Assembly (NCBI GenBank): GCA_002711965.1
Contig: PASM01000023.1
Coordinates: 11,987 to 44,159 of the forward strand
Source of the DNA: Chloroflexota bacterium
GTDB lineage: Bacteria > Chloroflexota > Dehalococcoidia > UBA1151 > TMED-70
DNA length: 32,173 nucleotides
Reading direction: 5' to 3'
Shown: piece by piece, positions 11,501-14,466 of the stretch
Layout: every line of letters starts with the position of its first letter
Position numbering within the stretch: position 1 is the stretch's first letter
Position numbers and translations under genes: made by a program
The notes under the pieces: model-generated
The model's input: the letters and a program-made list of their open reading frames with translations, nothing else
Told to the model about the DNA's origin: nothing
The model's database searches: none

Positions 11501-11780
11501 TAAGTTTTAAAATAAATATTAATTAAATTATAAGCGTTTATGTCTCAAAAAAATATTTTTTATCTTATTGGTGAAAAAAAAATATACGAAATTAAAAAAA
11601 AGACAAAAAATAATATATTTTTATTTTTTAAAAGCCTGTTATTAATATTTTTATATGCTATTTTTTGATCATGCGGTAATTATTGTTTCTATTTTTAGAA
11701 ATATTTCAAATTTTCTTCGTCGCAAAGAATCGCTACTTAAGTATTTATTTATATTTAATTTTTTTAACCTTAGGAGTTAA
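11501..11780. other. fmt-dnaA divergent spacer, extremely AT-rich
   Basis: This 280-bp region holds the promoters of fmt (-) and dnaA (+). The stretch 11550-11660 is almost entirely A and T, a character shared with DNA-unwinding elements. No DnaA-box-like 9-mer was found in it. AGGAG at 11772-11776 is the dnaA ribosome site. A 42-codon frame (11540-11668, +) begins MSQKNIFYLIGEKK and ends in a hydrophobic stretch. It lacks a ribosome site and is probably a chance reading of A/T runs. Confidence 0.5.
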
Positions 11781-13085
11781 ATGGATAATTTTAGTGCAAA
11801 AAATATATGGTCCGGAGCCCTTGGATATTTAGAAATGGTTGTCCAAGAAAGCATGTTTAAAACCTGGCTTAAAAATACAAAAGGCCTAACGATCGATGGT
11901 GATGAATTAATAGTTTCTGTTGAAAGTATCTTTGCTATTGAAATGCTTACAAAAAGATTAGAAGACTCTATTACAGAAGCACTAGTACAGACAATAGGAA
12001 AAAAATATAAACTTAAATATGTTCTTACTACAAATGAAATAGAACAAGCAAAAAAAACAGAATTAGGAAGAATAAAAGGATCCTGGGTTAACCCAAAATT
12101 TAACTTTGAAAACTTCATAACTGGATCTTCTAATTATTTAGCTTATGCCGCCGCAAAAAAGGTCTGTGAAAGCCCAGGGGCTCTGTATAACCCTCTATAT
12201 ATTTATGGTGAATGGGGATTAGGAAAAACACATCTAATTCAAGCAATAGCCAAAACATTAAAAGTCAAAGGATTAGATATAGTTTCTGTAACAGGAGAAT
12301 CTTATACAAATGATTTTGTAAAATCTATCAAGAATAATAATTTAAGTGAAATGAAGAAATATCGTGATTGCGACATATTTATCATAGATGATATTGATTT
12401 TTTCTCTGGTAAAAAACAAACAGTAGAATCTTTAATTCACATTATTAATCAGCTCCAATTATCAGAAAAACAGGTAATTGTAACTTCTTATAACCACCCA
12501 AATAAAATAAATATGTCTTCAAGATTAACATCAATATTAAAGTCTGGATTAATTGTAAAAATTCAAACCCCAGATAAAGAAACTGCAAGAAAATATATTT
12601 TGAATAAATTTAACAAGAATTTTAATAATTATGATGAAAAATTAATTGACTTTATTTCTTCTAAAAAATTTCATTCTTTTAGTGAAATTGAGGGAATCAT
12701 AAAATCATTAGTAGCACATACAGAACTCCTAAATAAAAACGTCTCTGAAGAAATGGTTTTAAACATAATTCAAGACTATAAATTAGAAACCATAAAAGAT
12801 ATAACAATTTCAATAGAAAAAATATTCAGTTTAATAAAATATATGTTCGGAATAGATGAAGCAGATTTAAAAAGCCGGAAAAACGATAAAAAAACCAACT
12901 ATGCTAGACATTTTGCAGCTTATCTATTAGTAGAAAAATCTAATTTTTCTACAGGTCAAGCAGGAAAGTTGCTGGGAAACCGAAACCATTCTACAATTAT
13001 TTATTCTGTCAACAAAATTAAAAAAGAGTTGTCAAAAAATGTTCAATTAAAGGCTGAAATAGAGAAAACTATTTTACAAAATTAA
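11781..13085 (+). CDS. dnaA: Chromosomal replication initiator DnaA, divergent
   Basis: Replication initiator, 434 aa, with a short linker between domain I (1-80) and the AAA+ domain. Walker A is GEWGLGKT (143-150) and Walker B is IIDDIDF (201-207). Domain IV ends in the HTH region with GNRNHSTIIYS (399-409) where most DnaA have GGRDHTTVLHA. Aligned to E. coli by eye, the arginine finger R285 is I252, sensor II R334 is S301 and sensor I D269 is Y237. The box VII arginine R281 (R248) and the minor-groove arginine R399 (R376) are kept. ATP binding looks possible, but the ATP-sensing contacts are not standard. The start is fixed by AGGAG four bases upstream. Divergent from fmt and followed by a candidate origin and obgE. 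Confidence 0.93.
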   Translation: MDNFSAKNIWSGALGYLEMVVQESMFKTWLKNTKGLTIDGDELIVSVESIFAIEMLTKRLEDSITEALVQTIGKKYKLKYVLTTNEIEQAKKTELGRIKGSWVNPKFNFENFITGSSNYLAYAAAKKVCESPGALYNPLYIYGEWGLGKTHLIQAIAKTLKVKGLDIVSVTGESYTNDFVKSIKNNNLSEMKKYRDCDIFIIDDIDFFSGKKQTVESLIHIINQLQLSEKQVIVTSYNHPNKINMSSRLTSILKSGLIVKIQTPDKETARKYILNKFNKNFNNYDEKLIDFISSKKFHSFSEIEGIIKSLVAHTELLNKNVSEEMVLNIIQDYKLETIKDITISIEKIFSLIKYMFGIDEADLKSRKNDKKTNYARHFAAYLLVEKSNFSTGQAGKLLGNRNHSTIIYSVNKIKKELSKNVQLKAEIEKTILQN

Positions 13086-13215
13086 TACTTTTCACCGAAA
13101 ATTAATTTCTTTCAACAGTTATTTACCTTTTTCAACAAAAATAATCCAACTTGAATACCATTCCTTTATTAACAATTTCAACACATTTAAATATTATTAT
13201 TAAATAAACATATAT
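13086..13215. other. Candidate oriC with DnaA-box-like 9-mers
   Basis: A 130-bp gap between dnaA and obgE holds repeated TTTCAACA-type words: CTTTCAACA 13109-13117, TTTTCAACA 13129-13137 and ATTTCAACA 13175-13183. TTATTAACA 13166-13174 abuts the last of these. The first two are exactly 20 bp apart, with TTATTTACC between them at 13119. They differ from TTATCCACA/TTTTCCACA mainly at the central CC. Position beside dnaA, the shift in gene direction around dnaA and AT-richness support an origin. No experimental or skew evidence is available here. Confidence 0.4.
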
Positions 13216-14466
13216 ATGATAGATAAATTAATAATAAAAGTTAAACCTGGTAATGGTGGAAAAGGATCAGTAAGTTTCAATAGGGACTCTAATAATTCTA
13301 GGGGTGGCCCAGATGGTGGTAATGGGGGATCTGGTGGAAATATAATATTGAAAGCTAATTCCAATCTATCAGATTTAAATAAATACTCATTTCAAAAAAG
13401 TTTTTTTGCTGAAAATGGAAATGATGGCTCTAAACAAAAGAAATCTGGATCAAAGGGAAAAAATTTAACTTTAGATTTGCCGATTGGGTGTTTGGTTTGG
13501 GAAATTTCAGGTGAAAATAAAACATTAGTAGCCTCAATGTTAAATGAAACATCCGAAATAGAATTATATTTAGGTGGATCAGGTGGAAAAGGAAACACCT
13601 CTTTTGTATCTTCTCAAAATAAAGAACCTTTGTTGGCTGAAGCGGGCCAGCATTCTCAAATCTATTCTTTGGAACTTGATTATAGAATATATTCTGATTT
13701 GTTATTACTAGGACTTCCTAATTCTGGCAAGTCTAGCTTTTTATCTTCTTTTTCAAATGCAAAACCTGAAATAAATACATATCCATACACAACCAGAGAG
13801 CCTGTAATAGCAATTTCCAAAGTCAATTATTCAAATATAAAAATTATTGAACTGCCGTCTATTGATAATGGAAAAGGATTGGGTGCTAATTACTTAAAAC
13901 ACTTATACTTTTCAAAATTTGTCTGCCTTACGGTTGAGCATGGAGAAAATATCATTGAACAGATTGACAATTTACTTGATTCTATTTCTTCTTTCGATGA
14001 AAATCTTTTAACTAAAAAGTTTATAGTTTTAATCTCAAAATCAGAAAATGTAAATTCAGATGAGAAAAAGATTATTAACAATAAATTGTTAGAAAAATTT
14101 CCCTTCCTTTCAACGCTTCCTTTTTATTTTTCTAATAAAAATTCAGAAAAAAATAAAGAAATACTACTTTTTGTTCTGAAAAATATGAGTGAAGTAAATA
14201 ACTCTGAAAATGATGCCTTTATACCAACTATAAATCTAAGAAATTTAAATATCAATAAAGTTAAAAAAACGCAAGATTTTTATGAAATACTTGATAGAAA
14301 TTTTATCCAGTTAGCTGAAGGGTCGGATTTAAGTAACTGGAAAGCTTTAGTTCAATTTCAATATAAACTAAAGTCATCTAAGATTTCCGACGAATTAAAT
14401 AATCTAGGGATAAAAAAAGGAGATAAAATAAAGATTTCTAATTATGAATTTACCTGGGAAGAATAA
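13216..14466 (+). CDS. obgE: Obg-family GTPase with degenerate G motifs
   Basis: Ribosome-associated Obg protein, 416 aa. The glycine-rich Obg fold (1-157) is well kept. The G domain has G1 GLPNSGKS (166-173) and G2 YPYTTREP (189-196). The G3 site, normally DxPG, reads ELPS (212-215) with a short switch II deletion, and G4, normally NKxD, reads SKSE (274-277). A C-terminal OCT-type domain (about 350-416, ending NLGIKKGDKIKISNYEFTW) is present, as in Firmicutes and Chloroflexota Obg. Loss of G3 and G4 residues suggests altered nucleotide use. The gene is intact, so it is probably functional in another way. Followed by nadD with a 23-bp overlap. Confidence 0.9.
   Translation: MIDKLIIKVKPGNGGKGSVSFNRDSNNSRGGPDGGNGGSGGNIILKANSNLSDLNKYSFQKSFFAENGNDGSKQKKSGSKGKNLTLDLPIGCLVWEISGENKTLVASMLNETSEIELYLGGSGGKGNTSFVSSQNKEPLLAEAGQHSQIYSLELDYRIYSDLLLLGLPNSGKSSFLSSFSNAKPEINTYPYTTREPVIAISKVNYSNIKIIELPSIDNGKGLGANYLKHLYFSKFVCLTVEHGENIIEQIDNLLDSISSFDENLLTKKFIVLISKSENVNSDEKKIINNKLLEKFPFLSTLPFYFSNKNSEKNKEILLFVLKNMSEVNNSENDAFIPTINLRNLNINKVKKTQDFYEILDRNFIQLAEGSDLSNWKALVQFQYKLKSSKISDELNNLGIKKGDKIKISNYEFTWEE

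Follow-up and report, generated by a model that had tools for sequence, protein, structure and literature searches.

A naturally finger-less DnaA in marine Chloroflexota, encoded beside a putative origin with altered DnaA boxes

The trigger of bacterial chromosome replication is taken to be the arginine finger of DnaA together with the ATP state of this protein. In E. coli, the finger residue R285 has been described as needed for ATP-dependent activation, whereas the sensor II residue R334 is described as serving hydrolysis, RIDA and DDAH and as dispensable for functional initiation complexes (PMC5742627). An earlier note on the locus studied here had considered both residues to be needed at oriC in E. 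coli; going by that source, this is correct for R285, but not for R334. A basal unwinding system (BUS) has been outlined as a box with at most two mismatches to TTATCCACA, a second box with at most four and at least three 3′-NAN-5′ trios within 16 bases. The same source reports that strand separation failed with finger mutants of the DnaA proteins of B. subtilis, S. elongatus, H. pylori and D. radiodurans, and that those of the latter three species did not need ATP (PMC8287927). Furthermore, a rebuilt E. coli oriC in which all sites accept ATP- or ADP-DnaA (oriC-allADP) is stated to suppress the lethality of R285A, with hyper-initiation (Grimwade et al. 2018, as given in the review PMC6727663). 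When searching titles and abstract openings of the open-licence literature, we came across no description of a natural DnaA without the finger.

We analysed a stretch of 32,173 nucleotides from a Chloroflexota bacterium (contig PASM01000023.1), hereafter called the window. Its DnaA scored above the Pfam cut-offs for PF11638 (DnaA_N, 32.7 bits), PF00308 (Bac_DnaA, 159.5 bits) and PF08299 (Bac_DnaA_C, 56.2 bits). The TIGR00362 equivalog score, however, was 333.7 bits and thus about 10 bits short of the cut-off of 343.9, which only one of nine genomes carrying this type of DnaA reached (G003, 344.7 bits). An AF2 monomer model of the protein (mean pLDDT 86.1, pTM 0.59) gave B. subtilis DnaA (8btg) and A. 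aeolicus DnaA as the best Foldseek matches. Judged from its sequence, the protein counts as a DnaA in descent, domain content and gene order, whereas its defining residues set it apart from the ATP-switch DnaAs. The coordinates of the gene, its key residues and the adjoining putative origin are collected in Table 1.

Table 1. Features of the dnaA locus in the window; residue equivalents follow E. coli K-12 DnaA
Feature	Position	Strand	Basis or remark
dnaA, finger-less DnaA	11781..13085	+	434 aa, ATG start; Pfam domains I, III and IV above cut-off
Walker A GEWGLGKT, residues 143-150, with clade-specific W145	12207..12230	+	alignment
Walker B IIDD, residues 201-204	12381..12392	+	alignment
Sensor I position, D269 to Y237	12489..12491	+	Y in 42/42 clade rows
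Box VII R281 kept, as R248	12522..12524	+	42/42 clade rows
Arginine finger position, R285 to I252	12534..12536	+	I 37 / M 5 of 42 clade rows
Clade-specific K254, possible substitute contact (putative role)	12540..12542	+	42/42 clade rows
Sensor II position, R334 to S301	12681..12683	+	S in 42/42 clade rows
DnaA-box minor-groove arginine, R399 to N368	12882..12884	+	N 24 / T 18 of 42 clade rows
Putative oriC, dnaA-obg gap	13086..13215	+	ten-sequence alignment, box counts, pattern in 9/9 genomes
Box CTTTCAACA	13109..13117	+	putative DnaA box
Box TTTTCAACA	13129..13137	+	putative DnaA box
Box TTATTAACA, first of abutting pair	13166..13174	+	putative DnaA box
Box ATTTCAACA, second of abutting pair	13175..13183	+	putative DnaA box
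Trio-like run ATA TTA TTA TTA	13191..13202	+	16 bases past 13174, the end of the pair's first box; fits the rule by eye

Residues were numbered by alignment to E. coli K-12 DnaA and the other rows. The clade of the window DnaA comprised 42 rows (the window, nine genome loci and 32 database proteins), near-duplicates included, of which 30 were distinct over domain III (E. coli 160-340). The earlier note had placed an intact Walker A and Walker B and the loss of R285, R334 and D269 at exactly the positions recovered by this alignment, and all three losses are fixed in the clade. The Walker A pattern G-x-x-G-x-GKT was found in 40 of the 42 rows, the other two being fragments, and the Walker B aspartates in all 42. 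In addition, we found a fourth loss which the note had not listed, that of R399, replaced by N or T in every clade row. Among the 134 rows outside the clade, R285 is present in 132 (the others being one X and one V) and R334 in 133 (one X). Position 269 is D in 115, N in 16 and another residue in three, and the R399 position is R (118) or K (14) in 132. Counting only distinct genomes outside the clade (n=75), R285 is found in 73 DnaAs, with X in one (L066, masked bases) and V in one (L063, which belongs to a second finger-less clade described below). After extending the set by additional loci and another protein search, we counted 287 rows that belong to neither finger-less clade: 286 of them carry R285, and one has an unreadable X there. 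Some genomes contribute more than one of these rows, and the database proteins among them are the top-scoring matches listed rather than a census. Because the losses are fixed across the 42 clade rows, they are not sequencing errors. We give practically no credence to an artefact of alignment, assembly or binning: the data are mostly metagenome-assembled genomes (MAGs) and metagenome proteins, but nine genomes of identical gene order and the 30 distinct domain III sequences concur, and box VII and the sensor motifs align ungapped.

Like the canonical bacterial DnaA (E. coli, B. subtilis; TIGR00362), the window protein has domains I, III and IV, both Walker motifs and DnaA structures as its best matches, and its gene adjoins an oriC-like gap. 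R281, R227, K243 and L290 are kept in all 42 clade rows and V211 of the single-stranded DNA H-motif in 41, with one gap. It differs in the absence of R285, D269, R334 and R399 and in its TIGR00362 score. The alignment with DnaA of related genomes, which the earlier note had proposed as a check, contained no replacement arginine for the finger anywhere in the clade. Instead, the clade has its own residues at the nucleotide pocket and the interface (W145, Y237, N238, I252, K254, K260, K271, Y272, K296 and S301), among them an invariant lysine, K254, two residues past the finger position. In the AF2 model, I252 lies in the helix 247-254, which K254 is predicted to end. This opens the alternative that the switch was rewired and not lost, and that K254 (beside the finger), K260 and K296 (near sensor II), lysines that are new in the clade, still sense ATP between protomers together with the pocket residues W145 and Y237. 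K254, K271 and K296 occur in all 42 clade rows and K260 in 41 (one R), and these lysines are rare outside the clade. However, sensor I and sensor II were lost together with the finger, and the second finger-less clade has S or A at the K254 position, so that K254 is no general replacement of the finger. We consider a rewired switch unlikely.

The finger-less DnaA belongs to a family of marine Chloroflexota bacteria. Among the best 120 of 5945 matches of a protein search, 32 relatives have at least 61% identity, and the next ones fall to 36%. Nine genomes of the clade were present among the 60 relatives searched; as these are nearby sequences of shared ancestry, counts over them are not independent. 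Each of these nine MAGs, whose completeness is not stated, has one full-length TIGR00362 match and a single match to the DnaA C-terminal domain PF08299, so no second DnaA was found; the presence of one was what the earlier note had named as changing its reading. The further weak TIGR00362 matches in the clade genomes are of two kinds: an ORF of 458-467 aa beside dnaB, which was read in four genomes and has no PF08299 match, and low-scoring matches, some with stop codons. DnaB itself scores above the cut-off in all nine clade genomes, and in each of them the 458-467-aa ORF shares the contig of dnaB, at a distance of no more than about 2 kb (L009-L012 among the loci). It carries two DnaC/DnaI-like AAA+ domains (Pfam and NCBIfam, both read-outs from L009) and, on these domain matches, is possibly a double-domain helicase loader. 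Matches of similar size are found in many relatives outside the clade.

The clade stem branch has 1.06 changes per column in DnaA compared to 0.22 in GyrB. Within the clade, six pairs of four close members gave dN of 0.042-0.132 and dS of 1.16-3.57 (NG86), and hence a dN/dS of about 0.03-0.07 with dS saturated. As read from these sequences, the history of the clade is a burst of change followed by conservation. Alternatively, the residues could lack adaptive meaning and the protein could work poorly, as a result of drift or relaxed selection in genomes that are small and AT-rich. The long stem is in line with this, as are the listed genome sizes of 0.9-1.5 Mb, the GC content of 0.30-0.31 on three contigs and the neighbouring Obg, which has lost the N of its NKxD motif in 10 of 10 clade sequences. 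On the other hand, dN/dS is low, the altered residues are themselves fixed, and no internal stop was found in dnaA in any of the nine clade genomes. We therefore regard drift as very improbable.

The gene order fmt-dnaA-obg-nadD-pyrE-mazG-gyrB is conserved in 9/9 clade genomes. Outside the clade, an obg match lies downstream of dnaA in 35 of 45 loci of relatives, and fmt upstream in many, some of these loci being short. The Obg of the window (13216-14466) has a decayed G domain, with S or T replacing the NKxD asparagine across the clade and changes in G3 in several sequences, and scores under the NCBIfam ObgE cut-offs. In non-clade sequences this asparagine is found in 30 of 35 (two gaps). On the other side of dnaA, the fmt-dnaA gap (window 11501-11780) contains an invariant TTCGTCGC element in 10 of 10 clade sequences. 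A search of the window against Rfam with gathering scores gave no match.

We compared 9-mers of the form NTWTNxACA on both strands of the dnaA-obg gap, in ten clade sequences and in 31 relatives with a gap of less than 450 bp. In the clade, position 6 (x) is A in 28 sites, G in one and C in none, whereas in the relatives it is C in 37, A in 12, T in five and G in five, with a C site in 21 of the 31. No exact TTATNCACA was found in the dnaA-obg gap of the clade; the gap of the clade locus L006 also carries TTCTCCACA, which lies outside the pattern counted. The motif NTWTNAACA, derived from the window, occurs 24 times in forward orientation in the other nine clade gaps, compared to a mean of 2.45 after shuffling, and none of 2000 shuffles was as high; taken singly, five clade gaps with two sites each were matched by 33-60 of 2000 shuffles. 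The pattern AACA-NTWTN-AACA-NNN-TTA, which was defined after the alignment had been viewed, occurs in the dnaA-obg gap of 9/9 genomes and five times elsewhere, while its reversed control occurs four times. The densest box cluster lies in the dnaA-obg gap in the window, in L002 and in the G008 contig. Taken together, and as far as its sequence goes, the gap resembles an oriC that contains both DnaA boxes and repeats of the trio type.

This gap resembles the basal unwinding system as published (PMC8287927) in its tandem boxes, its spacer of at most 16 bases and its four same-side NTN triplets. By eye, the abutting boxes TTATTAACA and ATTTCAACA have two and three mismatches to TTATCCACA, within the limits of the box rule; the trio-like run agrees with the trio rule as well, although such runs are easily found in AT-rich DNA. 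In contrast to the published system, the window boxes end in AACA, and a DnaA without the finger is found beside them where the reported finger mutants were inactive. These published failures count against the reading of the window DnaA as an initiator, and so do the GC skew of three contigs, which shows no clear turn at dnaA and no clear origin, and the box clusters of two contigs (densest elsewhere in G006, only tied with the gap in G009). The skew would suit a DnaA that has left initiation and is a transcription factor or dispensable, with replication by another route. Such DnaA independence is reported to have arisen repeatedly in cyanobacteria (PMC7198777), which would be a similar natural departure from the DnaA-oriC rule; but in the cyanobacteria described there dnaA is absent or dispensable, whereas the clade conserves it next to an origin-like gap. 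Moreover, the box array and the trio-like run adjoin dnaA in 10/10 clade sequences, and both the low dN/dS and the conserved V211 speak against this explanation, which we hold to be quite improbable. The earlier note had left open whether initiation is regulated differently or DnaA has a changed role. The conservation of an oriC-like region with shifted boxes next to dnaA makes it more probable that the protein still initiates than that its role has changed.

With moderate confidence we favour the reading that the window DnaA is the working chromosomal initiator of its lineage, with a dismantled nucleotide switch, at an origin with altered boxes. The protein would bind ATP through its intact Walker motifs, with no arginine finger to contact the γ-phosphate of the neighbour; with both sensors lost, normal ATP hydrolysis is improbable. 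The suggestion of the earlier note that ATP may be bound yet not read as usual is thus supported by the residues. Domain IV is expected to assemble on several same-strand boxes of the dnaA-obg oriC, the last two of them abutting, from where DnaA would pass onto the trio-like run. The interface may be held by the kept R281, R227, K243 and L290 and perhaps by the new K254 and K260. The boxes have moved to NTWTNAACA and the DNA-binding residues have changed, for instance R399 to N or T; the two changes may be causally linked. Assembly would then be blind to the nucleotide, and the timing of initiation would be set by the amount of DnaA or by partner proteins instead of the ATP/ADP state.

By analogy, the clade looks like a natural version of the E. 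coli oriC-allADP strain with DnaA R285A: the switch residues are gone and an array of similar boxes lies beside the gene. Both would combine a finger-less initiator with origin sites indifferent to the ATP or ADP form. However, the E. coli case, as reviewed (PMC6727663), is engineered and mistimed, whereas the clade is natural and its changes are fixed. Here the loss of the finger and of the two sensors is fixed in a natural lineage in which no further DnaA turned up, and the boxes beside the gene have changed. Because the switch residues are lost yet DnaA is strongly conserved beside a likely origin with shifted sites, the clade offers a natural test of the need for the ATP switch. Whether DnaA-ATP serves the mechanics of origin opening or timing only becomes testable with natural parts.

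The second finger-less clade consists of L063 (genome G053) and six further members from the protein search (P0121-P0126) with 63-96% identity. In these seven proteins position 285 is V in six and M in one, sensor I D and R399 are kept in all, and sensor II is R in six and G in one (P0123). Like the window clade it has lost the finger, and its only available dnaA-obg gap, that of G053, also has AACA-ending repeats: four xxxCCAACA sites of the AACCAACA type, two of them abutting, noticed post hoc. It differs in that R399 and most of the sensors are kept, and by GyrB it is a separate genome lineage. In the GyrB tree the window clade groups with G013, G014, G018, G023, G025, G029 and G036, the DnaAs of which keep R285, and G053 is placed elsewhere. 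GyrB, with a single genome representing the L063 clade, rejects a joint clade and hence one shared loss of the finger by 180 log units (p-AU 1.5e-88). The DnaA tree with the diagnostic columns masked, which has long branches, does not reject the joint clade (p-AU 0.677), and the joint tree even outscored the free one by 7.24 log units. A transfer of dnaA between the two lineages would be compatible with the trees. Tentatively, and with more doubt than confidence, we suggest that a nucleotide-blind DnaA evolved at least twice: the finger was lost in two separate Chloroflexota lineages, the sites beside dnaA became abutting 9-mers ending in AACA in both of them, and the box array, not the contact between ATP and arginine, would align the DnaA filament. 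If true, bacteria can do without the classical ATP/ADP-DnaA timer in nature.

A further odd DnaA group was observed in L060, L061 and L062 (genomes G018, G027 and G036). There, the Walker B residue D236 is replaced by G, R281 by E and D269 by N, and R285 and R334 are kept.
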